Shown here in pieces: positions 4,796 through 16,392 of a stretch of DNA of 38,904 bases; the stretch's first letter is position 1, and every line of letters begins with the position of its first letter. The translations under genes and the position numbers were made by a program. This stretch comes from a virus. The stretch covers positions 1 to 38,904 of the IMG/VR virus record IMGVR_UViG_3300035670_013267; one strand, 5' to 3'. The notes under the pieces are model-generated. The model ran no database searches, was not told the DNA's origin, and saw only the letters and a program-made list of their open reading frames with translations.

Positions 4796-7528
4796 CTAAA
4801 AATTAATAACGTCACGCGGATTGATTCGTTGCCATTGTCCTCCTTTCCACACTTCAAAGTGAAGGTGAACTCCTGTAGCAGTCCCTGTAGCTCCCATAAT
4901 TCCAACTTTATTTGTTGTTGTAACTTTATCACCAACAGCTAAATCTACAGAATCCAAGTGTCCATAATACGTGTAGTAACCATCATCATGTTGGATAACT
5001 ACATAGTTTCCTCCAGTACCATCATAAGTAGCTGTGATTACAGTACCGTTTCTTGCGACGTACACTGGCGGCATCGAACCTGCTGGCATTGACGCAATAT
5101 CTATTCCTCCATGTATTCCAGCTGCCCCTCCACTAGCATAGTCAGGTTCATCCCATTCTTGTGTAATCGTATAACTTGAACGAACAGGATTCATCCAAGT
5201 TGGCTTACTAGGTTTTAAGTCTTTCAGCAAATTGTACCAATATTGAGCTAACGGAATACGTTCAGGATGTGTGACCGCTGGCCGTTCAAAGTTTGCTTCA
5301 AATGCCATCGTAGCTGTGCCAATATCTGTTAATGCTTTGAACTCTGCAACGGAATATGGATAAGCTGCCGATGGAATGTATTGGCCATTATGCATATGCC
5401 AATCAAGCAACTTCAACTGCGTAGTAATGTTTCGATAGTCACCACTGATACCAGCTTGAGCCAATAATCGTTGTACATAAGCACGGCCACTTTCACCAGC
5501 AATTGGCGATGTCCATTGAACTAACCCGTAGCCAGGACCTCCGCCGCCTTCGTCAATGTCTGGCATAATTCCAGATTCTTGGTCCATGTTCCCTAAAATC
5601 CCAGCGGTTGCTTGTTCGCTGTATCCTTTTGATTTTAAGAACTGCCAAACCGCCCAAGCATTTTTCTCTTTTTCGGTTGTTAGCTCTGGTGGTACATCAC
5701 CATCATTGCCGCCTGATCCATCACCAGGTATTACTTCTTTGCCGCCAACAATCAATCTATCAACTGTAATAGTTGCTTTACTTCCTTCTGGACCAAAGAA
5801 GTTAAAGTTATTCCCAACAAATAACTGAGTAAGACCCGTGATTATATGGCCTGCCCCTTTTTGATTGGATAACCCAATAATTTTCTGAGGATTATCGGCG
5901 ACTAATAGCAGTGAGTTGCCATCGGAAATCACAGGATTTCCGTTTTTATCTACTAGACCTGGAAAAGGATTTCCTTTTGTACCAATTGTCCCAATATGAC
6001 TAGAACCATTCCAAAATTCCGTACCTTTTTTTGTTAATTCCATTATTTTAGTTTTACCGTTCCATGCTTGTAAAGCGCCGCTTGCAAGCCTCAAAATATC
6101 TCCATAAGCATTGAATGATGTTTCAAAAATGTCTGCTCTAATTTTCCCAGCCCCTATAAAGTTTGCATTAAATACTCCATCTATTGTCCAAGCGGTCTCA
6201 AATTTTTGAGGATTCCATCCATTTTTGCTAAAACCAATACCTGACTTATTCATTCTTAACACCCTTTTTGCAGTCTTAATATCTGGAGTATCCATAATAA
6301 GAATGTCTGAAGGTCTATTTTTAGGCCAATGGACAACATATCCTCCATCATTACCTGTAATCACCTTTGAAGCGTTCAGTAAATTTTCATAGGCAGTTTC
6401 TTGTACTTCCTCAACTTTTTTTAATGTTGCTTCAACTGCTTGCTGAACGGTGTTAGTGTAAAAACCTAAATCATTTCCAAGAACCATATCTTTATAAGCG
6501 CCAATTCTTGGGTACCAGTTATATTCAATCATTCGCTCTTCAAACGTAATATCTTGTTTTTGAAGTTTTCCATGCACTGAATCTCCTAGTTGCAGTTCAA
6601 AGAGATCTTTGTATTCAGCATATTCGTCAGTAGAAGCTAAATCTATAATTGATACTTGATGACTTACTTTCGGTAAATGAATTTTCTTTTTACCGAACAG
6701 TTCATTTTCCGCCCATTTTTTCAATTCCTCTTTAGATTTACATTCAGAATTTGTATACTTCCCAATAACTCGATTACTATCAGTTACAACAAATCCTTTT
6801 GGCTGAACATACTTTAAAATAATTGGATTTTTTTCTGAATCATAGTCTCCATCAGGTACAGCACCTATTAGATATAAACTATTAGGACATTGCTCTCCAG
6901 AAGTAGTTTCAACAATGCTATCTAAATTTAATCCAAAGTCTATTACAAAACCTCTGTCTTGCCCTAATCGTTTTGTTAATTTGATTTCAAAATTATCAAC
7001 ATCTAATTCTGCATTTGCTACCCCAACTAAGTTCTGTGCTTGGTTATTGCTACCTATTAGCGCATCCATTGGGTAGTTTTCTTTAATAGTGAATTGATGT
7101 ACCTCTTCGAAATCGGCAAAATAATGAAATGGTTGCTTAAATGCTAATGAGTTTTGAATTTTATTCATAATTTCATCAGCGCCTAATCGATCAGCAAACA
7201 TATATTCAATAAAATTACGATTGGTATCAAACGAAATATGATTTGCTGTGAAACTAATTGTGGTTAAGGTTTTTTCGTTTATTTTATTTATTCTGAATAG
7301 TTGCCATGTTTTGTTTGGAGTGTAAGCTTTAAGGATTGAACCTACAGCCAATTTTTCTGAATGTTGCCCACTCAAGCTATAAACCCCGGTTAAAACGAAT
7401 CTGCCATTTATAACTCTGTTTATAATAGGTTCATCTTCAAAATCAGGTAAAAACAATCCGTTATGATCAAAATCAATTTCATCTTTGTCATATAGTTTGA
7501 TGTCATTTATTTTTTCGCTCATATCCAT
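4796..7528 (-). CDS. Tail-associated lysin (Tal): tail endopeptidase-like N-terminus, tail lysozyme and M23 peptidase domains
   Basis: 910 aa. The N-terminal ~380 residues are of the prophage tail endopeptidase / gp27-like type that forms the tail tip. A GSGG linker lies near residue 605. Residues ~620-765 are a phage tail lysozyme domain (KNAWAVWQFLKSKGYS..., ILGNMDQESG with candidate catalytic E651). Residues ~780-905 are an M23 metallo-endopeptidase with zinc ligands H806 and D810 (HGGID) and the HLHFE motif at H888-L-H890. The protein should locally digest glycan and peptide cross-links during DNA injection. It overlaps Dit by 10 bases. Having both activities in one tail-tip protein is known but not universal. 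Confidence 0.9.
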   Translation of the reverse strand: MDMSEKINDIKLYDKDEIDFDHNGLFLPDFEDEPIINRVINGRFVLTGVYSLSGQHSEKLAVGSILKAYTPNKTWQLFRINKINEKTLTTISFTANHISFDTNRNFIEYMFADRLGADEIMNKIQNSLAFKQPFHYFADFEEVHQFTIKENYPMDALIGSNNQAQNLVGVANAELDVDNFEIKLTKRLGQDRGFVIDFGLNLDSIVETTSGEQCPNSLYLIGAVPDGDYDSEKNPIILKYVQPKGFVVTDSNRVIGKYTNSECKSKEELKKWAENELFGKKKIHLPKVSHQVSIIDLASTDEYAEYKDLFELQLGDSVHGKLQKQDITFEERMIEYNWYPRIGAYKDMVLGNDLGFYTNTVQQAVEATLKKVEEVQETAYENLLNASKVITGNDGGYVVHWPKNRPSDILIMDTPDIKTAKRVLRMNKSGIGFSKNGWNPQKFETAWTIDGVFNANFIGAGKIRADIFETSFNAYGDILRLASGALQAWNGKTKIMELTKKGTEFWNGSSHIGTIGTKGNPFPGLVDKNGNPVISDGNSLLLVADNPQKIIGLSNQKGAGHIITGLTQLFVGNNFNFFGPEGSKATITVDRLIVGGKEVIPGDGSGGNDGDVPPELTTEKEKNAWAVWQFLKSKGYSEQATAGILGNMDQESGIMPDIDEGGGGPGYGLVQWTSPIAGESGRAYVQRLLAQAGISGDYRNITTQLKLLDWHMHNGQYIPSAAYPYSVAEFKALTDIGTATMAFEANFERPAVTHPERIPLAQYWYNLLKDLKPSKPTWMNPVRSSYTITQEWDEPDYASGGAAGIHGGIDIASMPAGSMPPVYVARNGTVITATYDGTGGNYVVIQHDDGYYTYYGHLDSVDLAVGDKVTTTNKVGIMGATGTATGVHLHFEVWKGGQWQRINPRDVINF

Positions 7529-12179: not shown

Positions 12180-12713
12180 GCTTGCTCCTCCTTTCCTCTT
12201 CTGAAGTTTTCCATTGCTCATAAGCAACTTTATTCATCGCTATACTATGAACAGAGCCAAGGGGCAAATGAATTACATCATGTTCGTTAATATCGCAAAG
12301 AACTACATAATAACTGTATAAATCTTCAACCGTATGAATATGGATTGTTGGAATTGACTGGCTTACTTTTTTTTCGTTGTTTTATTTTTGAACCCTTTTG
12401 AAAAATTACTTTTTTCTTCTTTTTGGATAACAGAGGTAAACACTTCTGCTAACTCAACAAAATCAAAAATGTACTTTTCTGCTAATTCGTCATAGGTCAT
12501 TCCATCTGGGTTTGCTGTTTTGTACGCAAGATATAAAGCGTTAAACATATCTGTTTCATCTAGTTCTAACTCTTTACCCTGGCTTCCCATCATAGACTTA
12601 ATGACGTTCTTCAACGAATAACCTGTCTCCTTTTCGAATTGGAACATAGTTAGCATATTAACATTGGGATTGATTGTAACTATTTCTCCACCATTTAATG
12701 TAATTTCTTTCAT
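12172..12713 (-). CDS. Tail assembly chaperone GT, made by -1 ribosomal frameshift
   Basis: The G frame (12713-12366) ends ACG AAA AAA AAG TAA. Slipping back one base on A_AAA_AAG (12372-12366) opens a 64-codon frame, VSQSIPTIHIHTVEDLYSYY... to ...EERRSKRG, stopping at TAG 12172-12174. The fusion is 180 aa. In lambda and most siphophages G and GT coat the tape measure and recruit tube protein, with GT made by a -1 slip in this very position, between the tube gene and the tape-measure gene. The extension overlaps the tape-measure GTG and contains its ribosome-binding site. Slip efficiency cannot be judged from sequence. Confidence 0.85.
12363..12713 (-). CDS. Tail assembly chaperone G
   Basis: 116 aa, start ATG with GGAGGAATAGCAAA upstream. 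The sequence (EITLNGGEIVTINPNVNMLTMFQFEKETGYSLKNV... ending NKTTKKK) fits the small acidic-to-basic tail chaperones of Firmicute siphophages. Eight A residues end the gene and form the -1 shift site that produces GT. A terminator-like hairpin lies just upstream, between the collagen-like gene and this one. Confidence 0.85.
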   Translation of the reverse strand: MKEITLNGGEIVTINPNVNMLTMFQFEKETGYSLKNVIKSMMGSQGKELELDETDMFNALYLAYKTANPDGMTYDELAEKYIFDFVELAEVFTSVIQKEEKSNFSKGFKNKTTKKK

Positions 12714-12762: not shown

Positions 12763-13020
12763 TTATTGTGTTTTAGCTTCTTCTAAAGATTTTACCCGTG
12801 CTACTAACGAATCAAATGCTTCTTTAGTAACTTCACTGTCTTTTCCTGCTGGCCCTTGTGGTCCAGTTTCACCTTTTTCACCAGGATCACCTTTAGGACC
12901 TTGTTTCCCTTCTGGAATAGACTTAATTTTTTCTTCTAAAGTAGTAACATCATCAACTAATGTATTATGGTGTTCTGCTTTGATTTCATCTTGTGCTTGT
13001 ACTTTTACCGATACCACCAT
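12763..13020 (-). CDS. Collagen-like phage structural protein
   Basis: 85 aa. Residues ~38-61 contain eight Gly-X-Y triplets (GKQGPKGDPGEKGETGPQGPAGKDS), a collagen-type triple helix, flanked by short heptad-like helices on both sides (DVTTLEEKIKSI and FDSLVARVKSLEEA) that could set the trimer register. It sits between tube protein and tail chaperone genes, next to a private terminator. Phage collagen-like segments usually belong to fibres or decoration proteins; here the gene is small and free-standing. It may decorate the tail tube or capsid. Confidence 0.8.
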   Translation of the reverse strand: MVVSVKVQAQDEIKAEHHNTLVDDVTTLEEKIKSIPEGKQGPKGDPGEKGETGPQGPAGKDSEVTKEAFDSLVARVKSLEEAKTQ

Positions 13021-13036
13021 GCTCTATCATCCTTTT

Positions 13037-13670
13037 TTATTTATAATTTTGTTTTTCATTGTATTTGGCCCCGCTGTCGTATTTAGCGGGTGCATTAGGG
13101 TGTCACTTGTTCTTTCACTACATCTGAATCAAAGTTTTTATGCCATTGTTCAATAAATTCTTTTTTACTATCTTCATCTAACAAAGTTTCATAATAAAAT
13201 TTACCATTTTCATCAGGTAAGGCTGTTGCTTCAATTTCTACATTTGCTACTTCGTCAGAAGAAGTATCAATTGTAAATTTAAATCCTGTTGATACACTTA
13301 CTTTAGGAAAAGCAATCATTTTTGTAATATCATCAAAGTCATCTTTAATATCTGCAGTTAGTGTAAACTCTTCTCCACTACTATCTTCCCCATAAGCGTA
13401 AACACCAGGCTTCAATCCTTTATCACTCATGCCAAATAAACGGCGTAATACATCTAGTTTTACAAACCCAGAAATATTAACCTTCATTTCTGTTGGTTTA
13501 CTCATTTTTTTCTTTGTAACACGACCACATTTTGCAGTGATCTCCGAAATTTCTGTCTCACCGCTTAATACTCCAGTACAACCAAATGCCGTTGATAAAC
13601 TTTCTTTTTTAAATTTAACTCCCACATTGGCAATGCTTACTGGATAAAATTCTTCATAAATTGTTGCCAT
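13037..13670 (-). CDS. Major tail protein, long form by predicted +1 frameshift
   Basis: At the stop the sequence is GTG ACA CCC TAA (CCC at 13100-13098). If tRNA-Pro slips from CCC to CCT, reading continues AAT GCA CCC GCT AAA TAC... for 19 residues, NAPAKYDSGAKYNEKQNYK, to TAA at 13037-13039, giving 210 aa. A stem CCCGCT/AGCGGG (13070-13075 with 13085-13090) follows the shift site by 7 bases. The extension shares the YD(S/T)GxKY core with the extension of the capsid gene, which is hard to explain unless both are translated. Listeria phage PSA is known to do this in its capsid and tail genes. Confidence 0.7.
13095..13670 (-). CDS. Major tail (tube) protein, short form
   Basis: 191 aa (MATIYEEFYPVSIANVGVKF... 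ending VVKEQVTP). Size, position between the tail-completion genes and the G/GT chaperones, and the beta-rich pattern (SKPTEMKVNISGFVKLDVLRRLFG, EFTLTADIKDDFDD) are those of Firmicute siphophage tube proteins. It forms the hexameric rings of the tail tube. The gene ends ACA CCC TAA; a +1 slip on the proline codon gives a longer form (separate entry). Confidence 0.88.
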   Translation of the reverse strand: MATIYEEFYPVSIANVGVKFKKESLSTAFGCTGVLSGETEISEITAKCGRVTKKKMSKPTEMKVNISGFVKLDVLRRLFGMSDKGLKPGVYAYGEDSSGEEFTLTADIKDDFDDITKMIAFPKVSVSTGFKFTIDTSSDEVANVEIEATALPDENGKFYYETLLDEDSKKEFIEQWHKNFDSDVVKEQVTP

Positions 13671-13672
13671 AA

Positions 13673-14113
13673 CTAGTTACCTCCTATGTTTTTATTGATT
13701 TCATTTATTAGCGCTTCGTTTAGATCTTTAGTAATTACAGGAACTTCTTTCTCCATCCCTTTACGCATGAATTCCTGTGGAACTTTTCCAATTGATGTTC
13801 CTATTCCTAAGTCAGGATATTTTAGGTATTCGAATCTCTTCTGCGGCCGTTCTTTAAATCCTAAATTCATATAGTCTATTTTCAGCGAATTACTAAATTT
13901 AGCATGTTTACGTTTCATGATTCGATTCTTTACATCTGAAACAGGCATTCCTGAAATAATTGTTTTTGCAGTCATTTCTGCACTTTTTGTTCGTAATACT
14001 TGATTAATGATTGTTTCAGAAGATCCTGGGATTTTCATCATATTTTCCCGAAGCTTATCCAAATCTACAAACTCAACATCCCACGCGGTACTCGTATTAA
14101 ATGCTGCACTCAT
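13673..14113 (-). CDS. HK97 gp10-like head-tail / tail completion protein
   Basis: 146 aa (SAAFNTSTAWDVEFVDLDKLRENMMKIPGSSETIINQVLR...). The N-terminal helix with MTAKTIISGMPVS followed by basic residues and a C-terminal helix (MRKGMEKEVPVITKDLNEALINEINKNI) is the pattern of HK97 gp10-type proteins, which lie between the connectors and the tube gene. It overlaps the preceding gene by 17 bases. In most relatives this gene precedes the tail terminator; here the order seems reversed. Confidence 0.65.
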   Translation of the reverse strand: MSAAFNTSTAWDVEFVDLDKLRENMMKIPGSSETIINQVLRTKSAEMTAKTIISGMPVSDVKNRIMKRKHAKFSNSLKIDYMNLGFKERPQKRFEYLKYPDLGIGTSIGKVPQEFMRKGMEKEVPVITKDLNEALINEINKNIGGN

Positions 14114-14513
14114 ATTTCAGTCTCCTTAGAAAGAAAAATTCAACTTCATCTACATAATTATCCTCTTTACCAATTTGTATTGAAGATTTATTTGAATATT
14201 GAAACGTATAGAATTTTTTCTGCTCTTTCTCCAACGTTGAAATGACATCCAAACAGAACTCATCTAAATCATCTCTATTTTGAGAGTAAAAACGTAACAA
14301 TACGACTTGGTTTAATTGTGATTGTTCAGGAGTTAAAACAAATCCTCCAGTTTCATAAATGAAATAGTTATATCCGCCCGTTTTTTCTTCAATTTCTGAT
14401 AATGATTCTTCACCTACTTGATCCTCAAAGACGAGAAGTCCGGATAATTCTTCTAAACCATCTACCAAGTACTTATTTAGTTGTTTCAGACGTTTCTTGT
14501 TTCTTTCGTTCAT
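14097..14513 (-). CDS. Probable tail terminator / minor tail protein
   Basis: 138 aa from ATG at 14513 (MNERNKKRLKQLNKYLVDGLEEL...), preferred over a GTG nine bases upstream because GTAGGTGG precedes the ATG. Acidic, with a Cys-poor alpha/beta pattern (QSQLNQVVLLRFYSQNRDDLDEFCLDVISTLEKE... YVDEVEFFFLRRLKYE) like the gpU-type terminator that caps the tail and joins the head. The name is given from position and length; sequence support is moderate. Confidence 0.55.
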   Translation of the reverse strand: MNERNKKRLKQLNKYLVDGLEELSGLLVFEDQVGEESLSEIEEKTGGYNYFIYETGGFVLTPEQSQLNQVVLLRFYSQNRDDLDEFCLDVISTLEKEQKKFYTFQYSNKSSIQIGKEDNYVDEVEFFFLRRLKYECSI

Positions 14514-14850
14514 CGGAACCACCTACCTTCGCAAGATAAAAATATAAGTAATTTGTATCTTTATCTATTTTTATTGCTTCGTATTGCTCATCATCGATAA
14601 TGAAAGCTAATTTTTGATTCATGTTCTTTTTCAACGAGTATGGATAATGTGTTTTGAGTTTGACGTCTACTTGTTTACCAAAACTACTGCACGAAATATA
14701 ATCCTGTTCTCGAATAGAAAGATACCGAAAAAAGAGCTTGCCTTCTTCGACAAACTCTTTTCCGATTCTTTTTTTCTTTTCACTTAAAATATCTTTAAAG
14801 CGTCCAAAATAAAGCACACCATCTGTAAATGTTTCCCTAATCCGATCCAT
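14473..14850 (-). CDS. Head-tail joining (head closure) protein
   Basis: 125 aa (MDRIRETFTDGVLYFGRFKDIL...). The start pattern, a beta-strand core (KLFFRYLSIREQDYISCSSFGKQVDVKLKTHYP) and length fit the gp16/gp8-type stopper that closes the portal channel after packaging. The phrase FRYLSIREQD... is typical of Firmicute head-tail adaptors. It overlaps the connector gene by 14 bases and the next gene by 41 bases. Confidence 0.7.
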   Translation of the reverse strand: MDRIRETFTDGVLYFGRFKDILSEKKKRIGKEFVEEGKLFFRYLSIREQDYISCSSFGKQVDVKLKTHYPYSLKKNMNQKLAFIIDDEQYEAIKIDKDTNYLYFYLAKVGGSDERKKQETSETTK

Positions 14851-15148
14851 AAGATTCCACCTCTTCCAAATGGTTTTGAACTGCCATATCTAAAATAAAT
14901 GCGGCAATTTCAGAGGCAAAGTTTTTTTCGAAATCATCCAAAGCATTATTATAGCGATAGCGAACGCGTTCAACCAAAAGCTCTATTTCTCTACTTCCTC
15001 TCGCAAAAGTTAGCTCCACACCAGATAGATTGAGTAGATACTTTCGTGCACTTTCGATATAGTCTAGCAGCTCTCTATTGGTCTGATCATCTTCCCAACT
15101 GATTTTTAAGTTGTCTTTAACTTTTATCAATATCTCTTGATTATCCAT
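14837..15148 (-). CDS. Head-tail connector (Phage_connect_1 / gp6-like)
   Basis: 103 aa, all-helical (LIKVKDNLKISWEDDQTNRELLDYIESARKYLLNLSGVEL... NALDDFEKNFASEIAAFILDMAVQNHLEEV). This is the classic gp6/gp15-like adaptor that stacks under the portal. Its ATG lies inside the predicted +1 extension of the capsid gene (which stops at 15141-15143), so its translation could be coupled to that frameshift. Confidence 0.85.
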   Translation of the reverse strand: MDNQEILIKVKDNLKISWEDDQTNRELLDYIESARKYLLNLSGVELTFARGSREIELLVERVRYRYNNALDDFEKNFASEIAAFILDMAVQNHLEEVESYGSD

Positions 15149-16392
15149 ATCTCACACCACTATCGTATTTGTCGCCCGTATCATATTGGGCTTTCTCAGG
15201 GTGTAGGCTGTTCATCTTTATTCGTATTTTGCTTCACATTAAATGCCAAATCAGAAGGTACTTTAGAAATATCAAATAGCAAGAAAGATTCATTATTCTT
15301 TGGGCGTCCATTTGCATATTGTTTTGCTAAATAAATACGTTCATCTTCTACGAAATGGTACTCATCAGATACTTCAATTTTTTGTGTTGAACCCACTCCC
15401 ATGAAGTAATCTTTTGCAACTCCAGCAGCCATCTTTCCTTTTGGCATTGAGATTGATTGGATAACTTTAAATGGTAAAGGCAACACATCCCGAACATACG
15501 AGCCATTAGCGTTCAAGAAAGTTGTTGCTGGGAAAAACGTAGTCCAGTAATCATCAGGGTGGACAATTAGCATTACTTCTGCTGGTTGTACTGCACGTTT
15601 TAATACAGTTGTTGTACCATCTGCTTTTTTTATCGTTACATTCGTTAATGGCACCATAATTTTTTCGCCAATCGTTTTAGGTCCTAAATCTTTTAAACTT
15701 TCAGCTTTTTTATCGGCATGAACACCATTTTGAACAGTGTCTAAGTCTTTGATAATCCCAATTGGTTGGTCTTGCCCAGTACCTGCTACAATTGCTTCTT
15801 CCAATGCGATATACATTGATTCTGCTAGCACAGTTCGAATGTAGCGGTCCAACCATTGCGGTCCTAAATCTAACATCGCTTTACATACTGGAATATAAGC
15901 TGATAGCTTGAACAAACCAGTTCGTACTCGTTCGAATCCATTGTCTAACAATTCTTTAATCGGCTCACAAAGTTTACCCCACCAAGCCGGATTTACACCT
16001 TTACTGTAAATCCATTCTGTTGTTGCAGTAGTATTCACAAAATTAATTTCGGCTAACAACGGATGGGCTTGCGTCAAATTCTCAAAAACACGTTCAAAGA
16101 CTGTTGGTGGTACTAATTGTTCAACTCCGCCAAAACCTTTATTGGCAATGACTTCGTTATAATATTTATTCTCAGAAGCACTTAGAACATTAAGTCCTCG
16201 AGCAGCCATAGCCTGATTGTCTAACACTTCATTTTGAGCAACAGATTTTGCTTCCTGAATAATATTTTGTTGAATGCTATCTGCGAAATCTCTCATGGAT
16301 TTCGCAAGAACTTGTTCATCTTCCTGTTTCATTGCGTTTACTAAATTTTTCTCAATTTCAGTTGAATTTTTTTGCTTATCTAATCGTTCCAT
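15141..16392 (-). CDS. Major capsid protein, long form by predicted +1 frameshift
   Basis: The terminal codons are CAG CCT ACA CCC TGA (CCC at 15201-15199). Slipping +1 to CCT opens GAG AAA GCC CAA TAT..., adding EKAQYDTGDKYDSGVRYG (18 residues) up to TAA at 15141-15143, for 416 aa. The added peptide contains two YD(T/S)G units and is related to the extension of the tail tube protein, which has the same ACA-CCC-stop context. Programmed +1 shifting at CCC-stop at the ends of these two genes is established for Listeria phage PSA; here it is inferred. Confidence 0.72.
15196..16392 (-). CDS. Major capsid protein, HK97 fold, short form
   Basis: 398 aa. The first ~75 residues are helical and charged (delta-domain-like scaffold, MERLDKQKNSTEIEKNL...), probably removed by the protease encoded just upstream. 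Residues ~80-390 have HK97 capsid features: LVPPTVFERVFENLTQAHPLLAEINF, a long helix ending in LEEAIVAGTGQDQPIGII, and MGVGSTQKIEVSDEYHFVEDERIYLAKQYANGRP near the end. A good GGAGG precedes the ATG. The gene ends CCT ACA CCC TGA, a predicted +1 slip site. Confidence 0.92.
   Translation of the reverse strand: MERLDKQKNSTEIEKNLVNAMKQEDEQVLAKSMRDFADSIQQNIIQEAKSVAQNEVLDNQAMAARGLNVLSASENKYYNEVIANKGFGGVEQLVPPTVFERVFENLTQAHPLLAEINFVNTTATTEWIYSKGVNPAWWGKLCEPIKELLDNGFERVRTGLFKLSAYIPVCKAMLDLGPQWLDRYIRTVLAESMYIALEEAIVAGTGQDQPIGIIKDLDTVQNGVHADKKAESLKDLGPKTIGEKIMVPLTNVTIKKADGTTTVLKRAVQPAEVMLIVHPDDYWTTFFPATTFLNANGSYVRDVLPLPFKVIQSISMPKGKMAAGVAKDYFMGVGSTQKIEVSDEYHFVEDERIYLAKQYANGRPKNNESFLLFDISKVPSDLAFNVKQNTNKDEQPTP

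Follow-up and report, generated by a model that had tools for sequence, protein, structure and literature searches.

In the Listeria phage PSA, +1 frameshifts are known in both the capsid gene cps and the tail tube gene tsh, and they are also known in the tsh genes of phages A118 and A500 (PMC5009743). The PSA shifts are credited to Zimmer et al. 2003 and Dorscht et al. 2009, as cited in PMC5009743, and the PSA record annotates "ribosomal slippage" on both genes. In phage SPP1, the tail tube proteins gp17.1 and gp17.1* result from a +1 shift at CCCUAA and occur in tails at a ratio of 3:1; the ribosome pauses at the rare CCC and re-pairs on the CCU within CCCUAA (PMC6316719). The tube extension of SPP1, which carries an FN3 domain, is dispensable in the laboratory (PMC6316719, PMC8718954). 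Recoded Ig-like extensions of structural proteins are described for the coat of T3 and for Lactobacillus phage A2 (PMC5009743, PMC8718954). A role in weak contacts has been proposed for Ig/FN3 extensions, but what purpose is served by extending the C-terminus of a minority of phage capsid or tube subunits is unsettled in the field.

The locus described here lies in a window of 38,904 nt, which is the whole of the virus record IMGVR_UViG_3300035670_013267; the host is Enterococcus, a gut bacterium. The nearest named relatives of the window over most of its length are temperate phages of E. faecalis, and outside the capsid stretch the genome resembles such phages as VEsP-1 and phiFL1-phiFL3. The capsid module is of the PSA type: the capsid is 51% identical to its PSA counterpart, and a match is detectable in the DNA as well. 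This nucleotide similarity (71%) is confined to the capsid stretch within the region tested and does not place the virus in Psavirus.

The genes run on the minus strand in the order terminase, portal, ClpP-like protease, capsid, four head-tail joining genes, tube, collagen-like protein, gpG and tape measure, the names being assigned by position and by similarity to PSA. The major capsid protein gene (15196-16392, minus strand) encodes 398 residues with the HK97 fold, and the tail tube, or major tail, protein gene (13095-13670, minus strand) encodes 191 residues. The capsid protein is identified by Pfam Phage_capsid (4e-16) and the PHROG major head family (2e-50), the tube protein by the PHROG major tail family (1e-18), and the AlphaFold models match the HK97 fold and tail-tube proteins, respectively.

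The capsid frame ends in ACA CCC TGA and the tube frame in ACA CCC TAA, as had been noted in a sequence-only reading of this DNA and as was verified base by base. Each ending is a candidate shifty stop with CCC_U as the last sense codon before the stop: CCC_UGA at 15196-15201 in the capsid gene (CCC 15201-15199, TGA 15198-15196, minus strand) and CCC_UAA at 13095-13100 in the tube gene (CCC 13100-13098, TAA 13097-13095, minus strand). CCC is rare in this genome (11 of 10,407 codons, or 0.1%, in 46 ORFs, and 3.8% of the proline codons), and two of the eleven are the last codons of the capsid and tube genes. For both of these named genes to have CCC as the last codon the probability is about 1e-6, and for any two or more ORFs to do so it is 1e-3.

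In the +1 frame, direct reading shows that the capsid gene continues for 18 codons (15197-15144), encoding the tail EKAQYDTGDKYDSGVRYG before a TAA at 15143-15141, and the tube gene for 19 codons (13096-13040), encoding NAPAKYDSGAKYNEKQNYK before a TAA at 13039-13037, both on the minus strand. The two tails had been proposed to be related, and they are: their local BLOSUM62 score of 39 was equalled in none of 20,000 residue shuffles and in 4 of 216,111 pairs of 19-mers drawn at random across the window. Among the sense-strand frame combinations tested, +1/+1 scores 39 and all others at most 15. One antisense combination scores 38, which is expected because the antisense frame mirrors the same codons, and it is interrupted by a stop in the tube gene. 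The shared cores, AKYDSGAKY and AQYDTGDKY, are about 70% identical in DNA, and over the nine codons the differences number one, two and five at the first, second and third positions; the third-position excess has the direction expected under peptide selection, the counts being too small for significance.

Searches of Pfam, PHROG and PDB with both tails returned no match, and no SAP/HeH profile was found in them. Being 18-19 residues long, with no Pfam match and low AlphaFold confidence, they do not constitute folded Ig-like or FN3 domains. The low confidence covers the two tails along with the residues that immediately precede them, and these models are consistent with flexible appendages on complete folds.

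The tube tail contains no ATG, GTG or TTG, and a TGA lying two codons 5' of the slip site interrupts its +1 frame. Independent initiation of this tail was rejected for lack of a start codon, and since entry into the frame is possible no more than two codons from the stop, a frameshift is the only plausible way to translate it. The capsid +1 frame has an ATG a few codons 5' of the slip (ATG AAC AGC CTA CAC CCT GAG); separate initiation there is unlikely, as the tube case and the shared design argue against it.

A hairpin, not part of the sequence-only reading, follows each slip site. The capsid hairpin is GCCC-(10 nt loop)-GGGC at 15174-15191 and the tube hairpin CCCGCU-(9 nt loop)-AGCGGG at 13070-13090, both on the minus strand and both starting 7 nt after CCC, so that a shifty stop and a hairpin at 7-nt spacing occur together at both sites. 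Against dinucleotide-shuffled controls, the probability of matching the energy with a spacer of 6-8 nt is 0.0035 for the capsid and 0/2000 for the tube. The fraction of synonymous recodings that fold as strongly as the native hairpin is 0.023 and 0.025 at the window sites, 0.002 in both L009 and L013 and 0/3000 in PSA, and therefore the peptide does not force the hairpins. The mean folding z over the 39 nt after the stop is -3.10 in 14 CCC-ending capsid genes and -0.51 in 62 others. The capsid hairpin of the window, with a stem of only 4 bp, has a z of -1.3, the weakest among the CCC capsids; the stem is 5 bp in L009, where one of the three allelic changes adds a pair.

Relatives carry hairpins of unrelated sequence at 6-8 nt. 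At the equivalent place after CCC, the enterococcal prophages L011-L025 have the stem UCCUCCAC/GUGGAGGA and Listeria rocourtiae (L144) has CCCGUAC/GUACGGG, while PSA cps, where a pseudoknot has been reported at this site, has a 7-bp stem 8 nt after CCC. L020 has AAG rather than a stop following CCC, and a stem still lies 8 nt after CCC; stem sequences differ at the equivalent position among L013, L144, PSA cps and L020. The enterococcal SAP group shows minimal covariation, with one compensatory cell, and an Rfam search with the hairpins gave no match. The PSA tsh site, which is proven, lacks such a hairpin, so hairpins are not required.

The capsid genes of L020 (5625-5670) and L010 (5500-5560) have CCC one codon before the stop (CCC AAG TAA and CCC AAT TAA, respectively), with strong hairpins and an open +1 frame, and may be slip sites that lack a shifty stop. 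CCC at or next to a stop with a stem 6-8 nt later offers a signature for +1 sites missed by gene callers. In several relatives the tails have been annotated as small genes in their own right, or left out of the annotation. In Listeria phage LP-030-2 (L004) the extension stretches at 4972-5091 and 7080-7193 are separate small genes, labelled "SAP domain protein" and "hypothetical protein".

The reading that we favour, at a probability of roughly 0.8, is that a programmed +1 cassette at both genes yields a minority of long subunits bearing a related flexible tail, the likeliest role of which would be that of a common surface tag. Judged from the sequence, ribosomes very probably slip +1 at the ends of both the capsid and tube genes. 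The rare CCC codons, the likeness of the tails in the +1 frame only and the hairpins at a conserved position uphold the twin programmed shifts that had been proposed, and the PSA precedent invoked for them is sound, both in PMC5009743 and in the annotation of the two PSA genes. We infer the +1 slip at CCC-stop by analogy with SPP1 (PMC6316719) and PSA (PMC5009743). The ribosome would pause with peptidyl-tRNA-Pro on the rare CCC, with the stop adjacent and the hairpin 7 nt downstream; this spacing would put the stem at the mRNA entry while CCC is in the P site, probably adding to the pause. In some rounds the tRNA would slip one base forward onto CCU, and translation would continue for 18 (capsid) or 19 (tube) codons. 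The resulting minority of long subunits, with a flexible tail of (K/Q/R)-Y-(D/N)-(S/T)-G-x units, would then be incorporated into the head and the tail tube.

That the locus consists merely of ordinary gene ends followed by short open stretches is very improbable. Each tail alone has just 18-19 codons, as such a view would have it, but the joint probabilities for the CCC ends, the tail likeness and the hairpins speak against it, as do the homologous PSA genes with their established frameshifting.

The mechanism is known; what is new is the shared YD(S/T)G twin tails and the shifty stop with a hairpin at both genes. The window resembles PSA in having homologous genes (capsid 51%, tube 47% identity), a CCC slip in both and the +1 direction. 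However, PSA cps slips at CCC UCC with the reported pseudoknot and tsh slips at a shifty stop without a hairpin, whereas shifty stop and hairpin are combined at both window sites. The PSA tails are also mutually unrelated, the capsid tail being a SAP domain and the tube tail an acidic peptide, while those of the window are alike; the idea of a common tail thus does not carry over to PSA.

The tube site resembles that of SPP1 in its CCC_UAA slip in the tail tube gene, which in SPP1 gives a C-terminally extended minority subunit. The SPP1 extension has 87 residues with an FN3 domain, compared with 19 residues for the window tube tail, and no capsid frameshift is listed for SPP1 in the review, whereas the window has a candidate capsid site. 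The T3 and A2 systems are similar in that a minority of capsid or tube subunits has a recoded C-terminal add-on, but they involve -1 shifts and folded Ig domains, unlike the +1 shift and short unfolded repeat in the window.

The YD(S/T)G tail pair occurs only in this Enterococcus lineage, that is, in the window and four near-identical IMG/VR records. Conservation of the +1 frame in close relatives, which had been set as a check on the proposal, is seen weakly: all five keep the frame open, yet they represent only two alleles. Over the 54 nt of the capsid tail the alleles differ by three changes, all of them nonsynonymous, which does not demonstrate purifying selection on its peptide; the tube tail is unchanged.

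Nonsynonymous changes alone would fit a different explanation, in which the frameshift event itself is selected, through coupling to the next gene or tuning of termination, and the tails are by-products. The capsid +1 stop does overlap the beginning of the following gene, the ATG of which is at 15148 (ATGGATAA at 15148-15141). The tube tail, however, stops before the next start codon (13020) with no overlap, and selection on the event explains neither the related +1 peptides in genes 2 kb apart nor the SAP and FN3 domains in the equivalent slot of relatives. We consider this explanation improbable.

The restriction of two related tails to a single lineage is also what would be expected if a slip-and-tail cassette had been copied between the genes, or acquired twice by recombination, and were now a relic with little or no translation; across the relatives, the C-terminal modules of the capsid have plainly undergone mosaic exchange. 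Yet both genes retain the peptide, the frame, the slip codon, the position of the stop and the spacing of the hairpin although the core DNA has diverged to about 70% identity, and neither +1 frame has gained a stop. A relic is for these reasons slightly less probable still than selection on the event.

Among 50,697 phage records tblastn found no YD(S/T)G tail, and the tail was absent in a 395-genome order search and a genus search, whose samples lacked a positive control. Pattern searches of IMG/VR returned only the same four records and unrelated proteins with YDTGxKYDTG repeats. Such hexapeptide repeats occur in probable distal tail or other structural proteins of unrelated phages (L094, L097 and L098); the (K/Q/R)Y(D/N)(S/T)Gx unit is present in L097 as KYDTGLKYDTGLMYPN, with similar stretches in L094 and L098. 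The closest distinct capsid (68%), that of E. pallens L102, has a gene that lacks a terminal CCC. The L102 tube gene ends in CCC TGA and has an unrelated +1 frame of 14 residues, which is probably meaningless.

Across the relatives the C-terminal slot of these proteins is filled in various ways. In the +1 frame after CCC, a SAP-type domain is found in PSA and LP-030-2 (Pfam SAP, 1e-6 for the PSA tail), a SAP-like tail in enterococcal prophages and L. rocourtiae (the L025 tail matches SAP weakly), and an FN3 domain in Pontibacillus (6e-11). In the -1 frame after A_AAA, E. dispar, E. nangangensis and IMG/VR relatives have 20-21 residues that are alike on capsid and tube. Many Clostridia have long in-frame extensions that by eye appear beta-sandwich-like, and in many relatives the capsid slot is empty. 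The capsid C-terminus is therefore an exchangeable add-on site, and frameshifting is one way of using it. The wider mechanism that had been suggested stands in so far as many PSA-like capsid modules have the CCC slip cassette, which is widespread among them; the YD(S/T)G pair belongs to this lineage only.

The Enterococcus dispar and E. nangangensis prophages (L105 and L106) and the IMG/VR relative L028 are like the window in that capsid and tube end in likely recoding sites with alike tails. They differ in the -1 slip on A_AAA and in the tail, (I)TAPTVGxVTPTADGATVxLS, of about 20 residues. From their sequences, the E. dispar-type tails are apparently an independent solution of the same design. 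This second case of alike short tails, ITAPTVGTVTPTADGATVELS and relatives, resembles by eye the first strands of an FN3 domain, cut short.

The window tails would most reasonably be read as a binding tag. By analogy, the likeliest role would be that of a common low-density tag outside the virion that binds weakly to the surface of the host or to an accessory protein of the virion. The tube tail would be outside the particle from general knowledge of tube proteins (PMC8718954), and the capsid tail is presumably outside as well. When two unrelated proteins share a like peptide of about 18 residues, the purpose of such extensions can be considered apart from domain folding, on a very small, testable tag. 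It may be, although we hold this only tentatively, that several lineages have independently evolved recoding-controlled minority display of one short peptide on head and tube. If so, tagging head and tail alike would be a selected trait, for instance for adhesion of the whole virion to the host envelope, or alternatively so that a single accessory fibre could dock, an example being the collagen-like protein whose gene directly follows that of the tube.

This 85-residue collagen-like protein (12763-13020, minus strand), encoded between the tube gene and gpG, could speculatively be a partner of the tails. Its collagen stretch and C-terminal helix match the capsid decoration proteins of Bacillus phages 000TH010 and 268TH003 (54% over residues 35-82, 48 residues, 2e-7), the genes of which adjoin the capsid gene. 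The annotated gene order of PSA and of 4995_1 has no collagen-like insertion between tube and gpG. Further along, A_AAA_AAG at 12363-12375 (minus strand), just 5' of the gpG stop, is a likely classical -1 site for the tail assembly chaperones gpG/gpGT, with the -1 frame open on into the tape measure gene, and it would make three recoding sites in one operon.
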